DNA from: an uncultured Bryobacterales bacterium
Lineage (GTDB): Bacteria > Acidobacteriota > Terriglobia > Bryobacterales > UBA6623
Assembly: GCA_951813065.1 (NCBI GenBank)
Contig: CATOTH010000002.1
Coordinates: 620,001 to 684,000, forward strand
Length of the DNA stretch: 64,000 bases
Direction of reading: 5' to 3'
The notes under the pieces were generated by a model. The model was not told where the DNA came from, made no database searches, and saw only the letters and a program-made list of their open reading frames with translations. The position numbers and the translations under genes were made by a program. Of the stretch, positions 9,745 through 14,971 are shown piece by piece. Position 1 is the stretch's first letter, and each line of letters opens with the position of its first letter.

Positions 9745-10746
9745 ATGGGACGCAAACGATTGACCGCGTTGCTTGCGGCCGTGTTGGCGTTCTTTGCCGA
9801 TTCGGGACGGGCGCAGGACAGGGCTTGGGACGAGTCGATTGATTCGGCTCGTCGGGCGATCGCCTCAAGGCAATTCGATCAGGCCGAGCGCATTCTGCGG
9901 CAAGCGCGGATTCGATCGAGGGAATTCGCGAGTGACGACCCTCGGCGCGTGGTTCCGTTGATGGAACTGGCCAGGCTCCATCTGGGACGGGGCGACTACG
10001 CGGTGCCGGAACAGCTCTATCAGGAGGCCGATCCGATCGCGCGGCAGGCATGGGGTGCGGAGAGCCCGGAATACGCGGGCCTGCTCAACGATGTCGGGCG
10101 CTACTATCACCTGCGCGTCAAGAACGACGAGGCCGAGCGGTTCTACAAGCTGGCGTTCGGGATCCGCGTCCGGCTGCTTGGCCGCGAGCATCCGGATGTC
10201 GCGTCCTCCTTGAACAATCTTGCGATCCTGTACGAGAACCAAGTCCTGTATGCGAAGGCCGAGTCATACTACCGCGCCGCACTGGAGATCCGCGAGAAGA
10301 GCCTAGGGCCGGAGCACCGCGAAACGATTCTCACCCTCGAACACATGGTGAGGCTGCTGCACAAGCTGTCACGGGGGGACGAGGCTTTGGTCTTCGAGGA
10401 ACGGACCCGCGCCTACAGGCAAGCGGAAATGGAAGTGGAGGGGCCGGTTGACCTCGGTACGGTGGCCTTGGGCGGCACCTCGCAGCCAGCCGTGTTGCTG
10501 GAACGGACCGAACCCGTGTACACGGACGAAGCGCGGATCGCGAACCACGAAGGCAGCGTGCTCCTGCGGGCGGATATCGACACCGACGGCTACGCCAGGA
10601 ACATCGAAGTGCTCCGGCATTTGGGGCTGGGGCTGGACAGGAACGCGGTCGACGCGGTCCGGCAGTGGCGATTTCGCCCAGCCCGACAGCAGGGGCGCAG
10701 GGTCGCTTCCCGCGTACGGCTCGAGATTGCCTTCCGGTTGATGTAA
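9745..10746 (+). CDS. Exported TPR protein with TonB-like C-terminal domain
   Basis: A 333-aa protein. A signal peptide (MGRKRLTALLAAVLAFFADSGRAQ) leads to several tetratricopeptide repeats (about 40-210, with ALEIREKSLGPEHRETI typical of the Kinesin-light-chain TPR type). A TonB C-terminal-like domain follows (about 250-333, with PVYTDEARIANHEGSVLLRA and AVDAVRQWRFRPA). TPRs bind partner proteins and the TonB-like part normally contacts outer-membrane receptors. There is no N-terminal anchor of the usual TonB kind, so it is probably periplasmic or a modular scaffold rather than an energiser. No exbB/exbD lies nearby. The gene stands alone, with 206 bases of non-coding sequence upstream. Confidence 0.8.
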   Translation: MGRKRLTALLAAVLAFFADSGRAQDRAWDESIDSARRAIASRQFDQAERILRQARIRSREFASDDPRRVVPLMELARLHLGRGDYAVPEQLYQEADPIARQAWGAESPEYAGLLNDVGRYYHLRVKNDEAERFYKLAFGIRVRLLGREHPDVASSLNNLAILYENQVLYAKAESYYRAALEIREKSLGPEHRETILTLEHMVRLLHKLSRGDEALVFEERTRAYRQAEMEVEGPVDLGTVALGGTSQPAVLLERTEPVYTDEARIANHEGSVLLRADIDTDGYARNIEVLRHLGLGLDRNAVDAVRQWRFRPARQQGRRVASRVRLEIAFRLM

Positions 10747-11052
10747 TCCCCTTGCCGGGTCACCTCGCTGTCGGAGCGTCGCGCACTTGCGCCTGCAGGT
10801 CCGCTGATCCGCTCGCCGTCGGTTTCCGCGCCCTGAAGAGCGGTTGGTCCGAATCGGCAGCCCTGCGTCGGTGGGGGTTGAGTCCAGGCGGAATCGCTTG
10901 ACCCGACCTTGCCACTGGGTGGTCGGCACGGCCTTCAGCTACCGAGGACCGTTCCGGTGGAAGGAGACTGTTCCCACAAACACAGAGCACGGCAACTGCG
11001 GGCCGGCCCATGCGACTGCGTTCTTGACCCGCGCGCGGGCGCTTCTCGAACA
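10747..11052. other. Intergenic stretch between the TPR-TonB gene and the intron 3' end
   Basis: 306 bases with no credible reading frame. It contains a GC palindrome CCCGCGCGCGGG at 11028-11039 close to the intron's 3' exon junction. Nothing else is recognised. Confidence 0.5.
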
Positions 11053-11053
11053 A

Positions 11054-11126
11054 TCGGGATAGGGGGAAGCCTCACGGCTCCACCCCTCCCACACCACCGT
11101 ACATACGGGTCCGTATACGGCGGTTC
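11054..11126 (-). ncRNA. Group II intron domains V and VI
   Basis: On the minus strand, domain V (about 11126-11092) folds as a nine-pair lower stem (ACCGCCGTA with TACGGTGGT), a two-base bulge (TG), a four-pair upper stem and a short GACC loop. The catalytic-triad position reads CGC, as in IIC introns, instead of AGC. It is followed by a domain VI-like hairpin (about 11090-11057) capped by a GUGA tetraloop, with an A-containing CUAUCCC strand. This supports an active or recently active ribozyme. Confidence 0.8.
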
Positions 11127-11137
11127 GACCGGTTAAG

Positions 11138-12517
11138 CTATGTCCGAACATGGAGGCTCGGCAGTCCCAGCGCAGTAAAATAGGCGTTCGGTAGGGCCAG
11201 AGCGAGTGCAGGACTGTTCGCCAAGCGCCAAGGTCCGTGCGCGCTGCCAGCCGCTTTGGCGGCCAGTTGCACGTTCACGCCCCGTCGGCGTAGCTCAGCA
11301 TACCTCCGTCTCCCTCGTTTCCATTGCTTCCAAATCGCCGACCGTAGCCGCCTCCGGGTCCATTTTTCCAAGCTTGCCAGCACTGAAGGCGTCTCACACT
11401 TCCCGAAATAGCCGAGCCATCCCCGCCAATAGCGGGCTACGTCCTCGACCATCCGTTCGTGGCTCACGCCCCGAGTCCGTCGCGTCAGCTCGCGCACCCG
11501 CCGCCGAAACCGCTGCACCGCTTGCGGTGCAATCCGCCGCTTCGGCTTGCGGTGTGCCGTGAGGCTGAAGCCTAGGAACTTCCGTTCCCACGGCCGCGCA
11601 ACCGCGCTCTTGTTCTGGTTCACCCGCAGGCGGAGCGTCCCGGTGATGAATCGCGTCACGCTTTCCATCACTCGTTCCCCGGCGCGGCGACTGCTGACAT
11701 AGATATTGCAGTCATCCGCATACCGTGCGAACCGCAGCCCGCGGCGCTCCAGCTCCCGGTCCAGCTCGTCGAGCACGATGTTCGACAACAAGGGTGAGAG
11801 CGGGCCCCCTTGCGGGGTCCCCTCGTCCACCGGGCTCACCAGCCCGTCCTCCATCACACCGGCCGTCAGGAATGCCCGGACCAGCTTCAGCATCCGCTTG
11901 TCACTGATCCGTCGGGCCATCCGGGCCACCAAACGGTCGTGGTTCACTCGATCGAAGAATTTCTCCAAATCAAGATCTATCACCCATCGCCGGCCCGCAG
12001 CCATCTGCTGCTGCGCCGCCTCGACCGCCTGATGCGCCGAACGCCCCGGGCGAAACCCGTAGCTGTGTTCGGAGAACGTCCGGTCCCAGTGCTCCTGCAG
12101 GACCTGGGCCACCAACTGCTGGACGAATCGATCCAGCACCGTCGGTATGCCCAGCTTGCGCCTGCCCCCGCCCGGCTTCGGGATGTACACCCGTCTCACC
12201 GGCTGCGGTCGGTAGGTCCCGCTCAGCAGCTGTTCCCGGATGGCTGGCCAGTGTTCCCGCAGGTGCCCGGGTAGCTCGTCGACGGTCATCCCGTCCACCC
12301 CCGGACTCCCCCGGTTCCCCCGGACTCGTGCCAGCGCCCGCTTGCAGTTGCTCCGCTCGCAGGCTCGCTCCATCCACTGTTCGTCTGTAGCCGGGCTTTC
12401 GTCTCGTCGTCCCGCCGTGTGCGGTTCGGTCCCTTCCCCTGCCACTTCCGGGGCTTCACCCCTTCCATCGACTGGGAAGGCCAGCACTAGCTGGATGTTC
12501 TGCCGCTTTCCGCTCAC
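11138..12517 (-). CDS. ltrA: Group II intron reverse transcriptase/maturase
   Basis: Intron-encoded protein of 459 aa, acting in intron splicing and retrohoming. The RT palm carries Asp181/Asp183 in DLDLEKFFDR, then GTPQGGPLSPLLSN (233-246) and the catalytic YADD at 266-269. The thumb/maturase X domain follows (about 320-400), with the group II maturase-specific WLGYFGK region. No C-terminal HNH endonuclease is visible, which fits endonuclease-less IIC introns that use single-stranded or hairpin targets. The frame is intact. The start is GTG at 12517, with no clear ribosome site. Confidence 0.92.
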   Translation of the reverse strand: MSGKRQNIQLVLAFPVDGRGEAPEVAGEGTEPHTAGRRDESPATDEQWMERACERSNCKRALARVRGNRGSPGVDGMTVDELPGHLREHWPAIREQLLSGTYRPQPVRRVYIPKPGGGRRKLGIPTVLDRFVQQLVAQVLQEHWDRTFSEHSYGFRPGRSAHQAVEAAQQQMAAGRRWVIDLDLEKFFDRVNHDRLVARMARRISDKRMLKLVRAFLTAGVMEDGLVSPVDEGTPQGGPLSPLLSNIVLDELDRELERRGLRFARYADDCNIYVSSRRAGERVMESVTRFITGTLRLRVNQNKSAVARPWERKFLGFSLTAHRKPKRRIAPQAVQRFRRRVRELTRRTRGVSHERMVEDVARYWRGWLGYFGKCETPSVLASLEKWTRRRLRSAIWKQWKRGRRRYAELRRRGVNVQLAAKAAGSAHGPWRLANSPALALALPNAYFTALGLPSLHVRT

Positions 12518-12929
12518 GAGAAACGCCGTCCTACTTGCCTCTCCGTTCGTTCCGGCCTTCGGCCCTTGCGGGCCTACTATGCCGTCTGCTGACTTCTGCC
12601 GTCCGGTCAGGTCGGATTACTCCTCCCTCAGTCCGGAATCCCGGACGGACGGCAGACCTCCCGAGGTAAGTTCGACAGCCTTCAGCGCACAACCGCCGGA
12701 TTTACAACCAGCGCCCTTGATGGATCTGGACTTCGTCGTCAATGGCCGACTCGTCCGACGCCGTATGCCTCGTATCCGGTTCTTGTTCATCGGCTCGCGC
12801 CTTTGCTCTACGCTTCCTTCAGACCCCGCCTCGCGACGACGCCCTTGCGCTTTGCTAGGACTTCACCTCCATCAGGTTGTCCAAGGGACTTTCACCCTCA
12901 AGCTGTCGAACATGCTCGGCACACCAAGA

Positions 12930-12959
12930 ATGGCCCCTCCCCGGCCGGGGAGGGGCCAT
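12930..12959 (-). terminator. Terminator palindrome of the beta-helix gene and intron target
   Basis: A nearly perfect 30-base inverted repeat (TGGCCCCTCCCC arm at 12931-12942, matching arm to 12958) sits 36 bases after the stop of the minus-strand gene that ends at 12995. It is followed in transcription direction by TTCTTG. The intron begins at the next base after TTCTTG. Confidence 0.75.
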
Positions 12960-12994
12960 GGACGGACCCGTGAGGGGCCTGCCCACTGGTTCGG

Positions 12995-14761
12995 CTATTG
13001 CCCGGTCGTGGTTGTGGTCGTAGTCGTTGTTTCGATTTCGTAGTCCGCTTCGTCGCCGAAGAACGTCCACTCTTCCAGCCAGTTGACAGTCCCGAAAGCC
13101 CCCACGAAATCAGCGCTTGTGTCCAGGGCGCCGTCGGAAGGAGGACTGCTGCCAGCACCGGCTTCCAGTGCCGGGGATCCTAGCATCGGCCGCGGATCGG
13201 GATTGCCCTCGTACCGCACGTTGGTCAGCATCGGGGCGACATCCTCGTAACCGACGTGTGTCGCGATGCCTTCGGAGAACTGGGAGTCACCCGTCTCGCC
13301 GGCGTTGTTGGTGATGATGGCGTTCTTGATGCTGCTGTCTCCCGTCATGAAGAAGCCGGGCGAGTTGTCGCGGACATCGAGGGCTTCGCCCCCGAATCCG
13401 CTCATGACGAGGTTGCGAACCGTGACCTGCGTGCCGCGGCGTAGGCGCATTCCGTCGCCCCCGTGTGCGGAGAACTCGTCGGCCTCGAGCCCGCCGATCA
13501 TCGTCATGTTGTAGATTTTCGGGCTCGACCGCGGGGTTCGGTCGAATCCTGAACTGTCGTTGTCCGCCTCGATGCCGTTGTCACCGTCGGGATCCTGGTG
13601 AATGTAGACGTACTGCGCCGTGCCGTTCCAACCGAACGCCCAATCGAGGGAGTCGTCCTTCGCCCCGCTGGAAACGCAGTAGGTGCAGTTGGCCGAGCCG
13701 CCGAAGAATTCGATTCCATCGTCTTCGCCCTCGTGGGCCTGGATGTGATCGATGATCGTTCCGGACCCGACCCCGTGGAAACCGAAGGCGTTGGGTTGCG
13801 TCTCGGGATTGAAGTTCACCCCGGCGAACTCGACACGAACGTACCGCAACACGCCGCTCGAATCTTCGGAGTTGCTGCCCCCATAGACCGGCCGGGTCTC
13901 CGGGATTACTCCTTCCGCATGGCCCGTGCCACGCGTCATGGGAGCGTCGCCGAGGAGGATCAGCCCGCCCCAGCAGCTGGAGTAGCGCTCTCCGATATCC
14001 GCGTCGCATGTCATGACGATCGGGGCTTCCCGACGGCCGTCCGCGATGATCTTGCCGCCCTTCTCGACGACGATGACGGCGTTCTGGCCCTGGGCCAGGA
14101 TGTGGGTTCCGGGTTCGATCGTCAGTGTTGCGCCGCTGTTGACGAAGACCTGATAGCGGATCCGGTAGAGCGTGTCGTTGGTCCAGGTGGTGTCTGTGGT
14201 GATCTCCGTGTCCGTCCCGTCCGTTCCGTATTCGATGGCAGGCAGTGCCGAGACGACATACTTCGCATACGCTCTCTTGACGACCTGCGTCGTGTCGGCG
14301 CTACGCATCTCCACGACGAACTGCCACAATCCCGGGCTGGTTTGGGAACCGGCCCAGAGTTGGCTCTGGTCCAAGGCGGTCAGCGCGCCGACCTGATACG
14401 ATCCGGCGGCGTTCCCCCAGTAGTCCACGACACCATCCTGCAGACCGCTGCTGGTGGTGCTGCCGGGAGAGAGGTACTGGCGATCGCCAGTCTCGATGTT
14501 CTGCCTGTACACGAAGAGCGTGTACTCGGCTGTATCGTCCATCGGATCCAGCGTTACGTAGGCGGTGACCCGGTCAGTCGTCAGAAAGCCGAGCTTGGTC
14601 GTCCAGGCGTAGAGCCTTGCCGAGCTGTAGGGCAGGACAGAGGCAGTTGTGTCCTCCATGGTGGTTGTGGTGTCCGTCGTGGTGGTGTCCTGTGCGGGCG
14701 CTACAACCGATCCGGTGCAGAGCATGGCAAGGACTAGCAATGGAATTAGCGAACGTCTCAT
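12995..14761 (-). CDS. Secreted Thr-rich, right-handed beta-helix surface protein
   Basis: A 588-aa exported protein. The signal peptide MRRSLIPLLVLAMLCTGSVVAPAQ is followed by TTTTDTTTTMEDTTA. A beta-sandwich-like region spans about 40-190. A parallel beta-helix-type region runs from about 220 to 500 (LTIEPGTHILAQGQNAVIVV, then GFHGVGSGTIIDHIQAHEGEDDG-type turns). The protein ends in an uninterrupted run of nine threonines plus GQ. ATG 14761 was chosen for its signal peptide and a GGAGG some 14 bases upstream; the longer frame to 14827 lacks one. Proteins of this fold are often found with TonB systems or as surface adhesins, but the specific role is unknown. It is divergent from glyA. Confidence 0.75.
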   Translation of the reverse strand: MRRSLIPLLVLAMLCTGSVVAPAQDTTTTDTTTTMEDTTASVLPYSSARLYAWTTKLGFLTTDRVTAYVTLDPMDDTAEYTLFVYRQNIETGDRQYLSPGSTTSSGLQDGVVDYWGNAAGSYQVGALTALDQSQLWAGSQTSPGLWQFVVEMRSADTTQVVKRAYAKYVVSALPAIEYGTDGTDTEITTDTTWTNDTLYRIRYQVFVNSGATLTIEPGTHILAQGQNAVIVVEKGGKIIADGRREAPIVMTCDADIGERYSSCWGGLILLGDAPMTRGTGHAEGVIPETRPVYGGSNSEDSSGVLRYVRVEFAGVNFNPETQPNAFGFHGVGSGTIIDHIQAHEGEDDGIEFFGGSANCTYCVSSGAKDDSLDWAFGWNGTAQYVYIHQDPDGDNGIEADNDSSGFDRTPRSSPKIYNMTMIGGLEADEFSAHGGDGMRLRRGTQVTVRNLVMSGFGGEALDVRDNSPGFFMTGDSSIKNAIITNNAGETGDSQFSEGIATHVGYEDVAPMLTNVRYEGNPDPRPMLGSPALEAGAGSSPPSDGALDTSADFVGAFGTVNWLEEWTFFGDEADYEIETTTTTTTTTGQ

Positions 14762-14971
14762 GGTTGTTGATTGAATCCTCCAAGAAAAAAGCGGCCCGAT
14801 CATGGGTTCCGCAAATCGGGCTGGCACGTCAAATCGGCTTGCGCACTTCCCAAGATCCCGAGAGTACGCGGGGATTGTTACCCGTGGACAACAGGCAGAT
14901 TAAGGCTTCGTGAAAATCCCCGAGGTCGGCCGTGGTCTCCGCGCCAGGGACAGGCCATCTCGTACGAGACA

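Follow-up and report, generated by a model that had tools for sequence, protein, structure and literature searches.

The element studied here, on the reverse strand of a 64 kb window (the whole stretch of DNA analysed), is with high confidence a complete and recently mobile group IIC intron, which would move by the hairpin and EBS route set out below. The anatomy of the intron, the location of EBS1 and EBS3 by covariation, the three near-identical copies and the strong gene-terminal hairpin were obtained here, and the steps of mobility were taken from IIC biology as given in the available text of PMC10190682 and PMC4424553. The coordinates of all features are collected in Table 1.

Both ends of the intron, GUGUGCC at 12924 and CCCGAU at 11053, were set independently by three full copies with differing flanks, because the sequence common to the copies begins GTGTGCC and ends CCCGAT. 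The Rfam matches, all three above cut-off, ran in order from domain I to domain VI, and the last of them ended at 11053. The covariance model RF00029 fitted domains V and VI, in agreement with the group II domain V that a sequence-only reading of this DNA had proposed, and CGC was found at the triad position of the alignment, again as had been read. According to the available text of PMC7923331, CGC instead of AGC in domain V is a mark of group IIC. On folding, the last 85 nt of the intron (11053-11137) formed two hairpins (z = -3.55). A consensus terminator scan returned one terminator-like site, which lay within the intron on the opposite strand. A simple consensus scan of 10700-13300 gave no sigma-70-type promoter, and this result counts against the favoured explanation.

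Table 1. Features of the intron and its surroundings, with two further full copies in the genome.
Feature	Position	Strand	Basis or remark
Complete group IIC intron, 1872 nt, GUGUGCC ... CCCGAU	11053..12924	-	Rfam; three copies with differing flanks
Domain I, part	12671..12840	-	RF02001, 135.2 bits
RF01998 group-II-D1D4-1 match	12554..12630	-	54.4 bits; between RF02001 match and ORF
Domains V and VI	11053..11125	-	RF00029, 45.8 bits (cut-off 40)
CGC triad, domain V	11122-11120	-	RF00029 alignment
Putative branch-point A	11060	-	From position
Reverse transcriptase/maturase, 459 aa, GTG start, YADD	11138..12517	-	Pfam, TIGR04416, sequence
EBS1 CAUU, intron 181-184, domain I hairpin loop	12741..12744	-	Covariation, z = 20.1; hairpin in RF02001 alignment
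IBS1 CTTG	12925..12928	-	2 of 4 Watson-Crick pairs with true EBS1
EBS3 A, intron position 223	12702..12702	-	Pairs with IBS3 in 60/65 introns, z = 6.9
IBS3 T, first 3' exon base	11052..11052	-	T in all three full copies
CAAGAA, intron 140-145, proposed EBS1: not EBS1	12780..12785	-	z = 0.0; aligned to RF02001 consensus GAACAggAAcc
Perfect 30-base palindrome 5' of insertion site	12930..12959	-	13 bp + 4-nt loop as ssDNA
Upstream gene, 610 aa, hairpin at its end	12995..14827	-	Homologues across genus
Full copy L012	C1:865874-867745		Identical to window copy
Full copy L013	C1:696076-697947		One base differs in 1872 nt

The intron-encoded protein (IEP) matched RVT_1 and GIIM alone in Pfam, with no endonuclease family found in that search, and scored 413.2 bits against TIGR04416 (cut-off 300). 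Its best match among solved structures was GsI-IIC RT (6ar1, E 2.1e-149), followed by the maturase 7uim (E 5.5e-104), which we take to be a IIC enzyme. The match to 5hhj had an E value of 5.5e-85, and weaker matches were seen to LtrA (4.7e-41) and 6me0 (2.2e-37). Judged by its closest solved structures and by Pfam, the IEP is a class C enzyme without endonuclease. The YADD motif and the lack of an endonuclease, both noted in the sequence-only reading, were thus confirmed, as was the assignment to group IIC, which the Rfam core, the CGC triad and the nearness of the IEP to GsI-IIC RT all support. When 63 related IEPs were placed in a tree, the window IEP fell in a group (support 98/95) with rows from Acidobacteriota (seven) and Nitrospirota (one), so that the host is probably an acidobacterium. 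The window intron is an ordinary, sound member of group IIC.

To locate EBS1 we used covariation between introns and their exons. The locus set (n = 112) comprised the closest 80 among the matches listed in a contig scan, 29 further loci and the three copies of the genome itself. A match to the intron 5' region was present in 91 of the 112; removal of 11 that stopped short of the 5' end and three duplicate contigs left 77 rows, and removal of three with less than 10 nt of flank and of the internally deleted copy L030 left 73 introns. Within the first 400 nt, at every position filled in at least 70% of rows, the next four bases were compared with the last four 5'-exon bases of the same intron, with 300 shuffles of exons among introns as the null. 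Intron 181-184 showed 83% Watson-Crick pairs with IBS1 against 36% expected (z = 20.1), and the next-best position reached z = 4.2. Near-copies among the 73 introns (L117/L127, L124/L126, five rows of one Evansella genome and the three own copies) inflate these z values, but the rows were the same at every other position. IBS3 was scanned in the 65 of 73 introns with a readable 3' end (five were unclear and three had no match), and intron position 223 paired with it in 60 of these 65 (z = 6.9, next best 3.7). Covariation thus places EBS1 at 181-184 and EBS3 at 223.

The pairing between EBS1 and IBS1 was complete (4/4) in 32 of the 73 introns, 3/4 in 33, 2/4 in seven and 1/4 in one. Among the own copies, IBS1 paired with CAUU at 2/4 in the window copy (CTTG), 3/4 in L013 (CATG) and 4/4 in L012 (AATG). 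A pairing of two or fewer, as in the window copy, occurred in 8/73 introns and is counted against the favoured explanation. From the hairpin in RF02001, we infer that intron 181-184 is the D1d loop. In the E.r. group IIC intron, as described in the available text of PMC10190682, EBS1 comprises four bases of the terminal D1d loop, EBS3 is one base contributed by the coordination loop, and the DNA target carries a stem-loop on its 5' side. The available text of PMC7923331 gives 3-4 bp for the EBS1-IBS1 pairing of IIC introns. The short EBS1-IBS1 and EBS3-IBS3 pairings typical of IIC were both found here, with the window copy's own pairing falling below 3-4 bp.

The palindrome before the insertion site is the sole perfect palindrome of at least 18 bases in the window. 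The sequence-only reading had placed the start of the intron exactly one IBS1 length after it; the 30-base palindrome is present and perfect, but the true gap is 5 nt and a 6-nt IBS1 would overlap it by one base. As DNA, the 50-nt 5' flank of the window copy folded at -17.1 kcal/mol, a strength reached by 1 of 3874 random 50-mers from the window. At E 0.001, neither Pfam nor NCBIfam gave a match for the upstream gene, and by sequence its homologues (64-68% identical) were found in 10/10 other genomes of the genus. The 5' end motif of the intron was present in 0/10 of these genomes in the 1087-1506 nt downstream of the homologue. A downstream hairpin within the lowest 5% of 600 window-derived controls was seen at 8/10 of the homologous gene ends (all except L133 and L135), in a comparison that slightly favours the observed ends, as controls were the best of 40 offsets and observed values the best of 80. 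Since hairpins occur at most of the intron-free homologous gene ends, the hairpin is probably native to the end of the upstream gene, with the intron inserted there later.

The claim that this site is a clean case of terminator targeting held in part. In its favour are the strength of the hairpin and its place at the end of a gene, but the hairpin tail, ATTCTTGG, is T-poor, with four T in eight bases, and the consensus scan did not call a terminator at 12930-12959, the T tract being too short for it. In addition, the true EBS1 pairing is weak (2/4), and neither sister copy follows a co-oriented gene end within 1.5 kb upstream. L012 lies ~60 bp upstream of a divergent sulfatase gene (L012:3-1439, minus strand) and L013 ~200 bp upstream of another (L013:2-1300, minus strand). 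These neighbours may be chance, as the genome has 155 sulfatase matches.

The 5' flanks of the sister copies folded less strongly. The value for L013 was middling (-10.1 kcal/mol; 497/3874 controls as strong) and that for L012 unremarkable (-7.0 kcal/mol; 1789/3874) despite a perfect IBS1, so that a hairpin 5' of the insertion site was found in the window copy, was weak in L013 and was not seen in L012. Across 72 introns, the 50-nt 5' flanks had a mean of -12.2 kcal/mol compared with -5.5 kcal/mol for 1400 control segments from the same loci, with 39/72 among the best 5% of controls and 70/72 below the control median. An alternative is that the hairpin is incidental and the site is chosen by sequence alone. 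L012, fully paired at IBS1 beside an unremarkable hairpin, fits this alternative, as does the finding that hairpin energy and IBS1 pairing showed no significant trade-off over 70 introns (rho 0.17, p 0.16). However, the window copy combines a poor IBS1 with an extreme hairpin, and nearly all flanks fold better than the control median, and we consider an incidental hairpin improbable. The favoured explanation, in which the hairpin takes part in targeting, would allow that the hairpin made up for, or outweighed, the poor IBS1 at the window copy; L012 is the opposite case. The three copies alone suggest that hairpin strength and IBS1 match can compensate for one another.

We found three full copies of the intron in the genome (95.6% complete), the window copy included, at unrelated sites among the best 40 of 59 candidates scored. 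The ORF was intact in all three, and the exon junctions were CTTG/T (window), AATG/T (L012) and CATG/T (L013). Three near-identical full copies at unrelated sites therefore indicate recent movement. The sequence-only reading had called the intron likely mobile, and two identical copies and a third that departs from them at one of 1872 nt bear this out. It had also looked to further copies behind terminators; the two that were found are full copies, but neither stands behind a co-oriented gene end in the 1.5 kb upstream. Judged from these sequences, the window intron is probably still mobile.

The same 40 of 59 candidates included a truncated relative on C10 (635 nt, 85% identical), another on C8 (248 nt, 82%) and a 54-nt match on C9 (80%). 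These remnants show older rounds of the intron family. RF00029 gave six matches among the best 150 of 431 candidates, four of them above cut-off (the three full copies and C8); in the same 150, the C10 match was just below cut-off at 39.8 bits and one at C1:533201 was weaker (30.7). The loci L004-L010, L014 and L015 of the same genome (C10, C8, C6 and C2:459-467 kb) comprised, besides the truncated relatives on C10 and C8, reverse transcriptase pieces of more distant kinship, a number of which lay in C2:459-467 kb. It is very unlikely that segmental duplication, not retromobility, produced the copies or that they are dead relics: the truncated relatives at 82% and 85% identity show that the family decays too, but the flanks of the three full copies diverge exactly from the intron ends, and these copies keep an intact ORF with 0-1 differences.

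The sequence-only reading had also pointed to a visible IBS1-EBS1 pair, TTCTTG with CAAGAA, to be taken as chance if other copies differed. Both sister copies carry the same CAAGAA beside different exon ends, CTAATG and TCCATG, and we rejected the pairing as complementary by chance. About 9% of all 6-mers are present in the first 400 nt of the window intron, and so some 6-nt match is expected in about that share of cases for this intron. The complement of the last six exon bases occurred somewhere in the first 400 nt in 17/74 introns; by the numbering of each intron, it lay at 181 or 182 in five of these 17 and at 140 in two, which were the window copy and L076. That CAAGAA (12785-12780) is the real EBS1 with TTCTTG as a 6-nt IBS1 is hardly credible, since its perfect 6-nt complementarity, shared at its own position 140 by L076 as one other of 74 introns, stands against the unchanged CAAGAA in the sisters and a covariation of z = 0.0 over 73 introns compared with 20.1 at 181-184, by which it is refuted. 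A visually perfect 6-nt match can therefore be wrong.

Following IIC biology, the intron RNA would be transcribed, spliced as a lariat and bound with the IEP as an RNP, which would dock on single-stranded DNA folded as a hairpin. The EBS1 loop CAUU and the EBS3 A would pair with IBS1 and IBS3 directly after the hairpin, and the intron would reverse-splice at this site. Because the IEP lacks an endonuclease, reverse transcription would be primed from the replication fork.

We compared the window intron with known IIC systems. It resembles the E.r. and GsI-IIC introns in several respects: the IEP is homologous from residue 49 through its C-terminus and has no endonuclease, the triad is CGC, EBS1 consists of 4 nt within a hairpin loop of domain I, EBS3 is one base, and a DNA hairpin lies 5' of the insertion site. 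It differs in the T-poor tail of its hairpin and from the E.r. intron in particular in IBS1, as the E.r. target CTTT is fully paired (available text of PMC10190682) whereas the window copy pairs at 2/4. With IIC-attC introns it shares the IIC type and the logic of a hairpin plus IBS1 (PMC7923331, available text), but its EBS1 is CAUU and, judged by the junctions, identity with this group was rejected, as none of CTTG/T, AATG/T and CATG/T is the required TTGT/T.

The window copy follows a hairpin at a gene end. In this it resembles class C introns of the B.h.I1 type, which are reported (Robart 2007) to insert at terminators. Judged by eye, the three family fragments of the genus whose 5' end could be read (L148, L156 and L157) likewise follow G+C-rich inverted repeats with pyrimidine-rich tails. 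In contrast to the B.h.I1 type, L012 and L013, as two of three full copies in the genome, do not follow the end of a co-oriented gene in the 1.5 kb upstream.

A further kind of target was seen in relatives and does not concern the window's own intron. We searched the 73 of 77 rows with at least 60 nt of 5' flank, a set different from the 73 introns used for covariation, with a loose hairpin pattern. A short hairpin of the ACCGC-N3-4-GCGGT type followed by TTCGTT or similar was found in 12/73 rows (L072, L074, L075, L077, L079, L082, L085, L088, L091, L098, L101 and L109), and L086 (short flank) and L108 (shifted) were added by eye. An IS91-like integrase/transposase gene reading away from the intron was present on the 5' side in 9/12 motif rows compared with 1/61 others (L108). 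The motif rows lacking this gene were L075 and L077, which have short flanks, and L101, which has a full flank. On the 3' side there was a weak integrase match in one row, L053. In the tree, the 14 motif rows formed a clade of nine and a clade of four, with L108 besides.

All six intron-free IS91-like elements examined, out of 403 matching plasmid records and with two from one strain, carried GCCGC-N4-GCGGC-TTCGTTCAATC at the matching end. Four plasmid loci with an intron were also examined. L166 (Bradyrhizobium barranii) and L167 (Mesorhizobium sp. AR02) had annotated IS91 genes and the hairpin; L169 had the hairpin with a transposase annotated as IS5, and L168 had a different hairpin with a T-rich tail. 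Nothing on IIC introns at IS91-like ends was found in the literature at the level of titles or the opening of abstracts, and the mentions of IS91 in the available text of PMC7923331 concern other questions. The end of an IS91-like element is a possible target kind of some IIC relatives, comparable to that of IIC-attC introns.

The window intron itself adds one member to a well-known class. Its three near-identical copies and 70 other intron rows sufficed to place EBS1 and EBS3 with no experiment. We give an even chance to a broader reading, taken as a whole, in which IIC introns would be general DNA-hairpin parasites that retune one 4-nt EBS1 loop for each kind of hairpin tail, with the hairpin that ends IS91-like elements, a site taken by relatives, as a third target kind beside terminators and attC; the window intron would be of the terminator kind, its copies suggesting that either a strong hairpin or a good IBS1 can serve in place of the other. 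If it holds, the placement of IIC introns at the ends of IS91-like elements would add to the known IIC targets.
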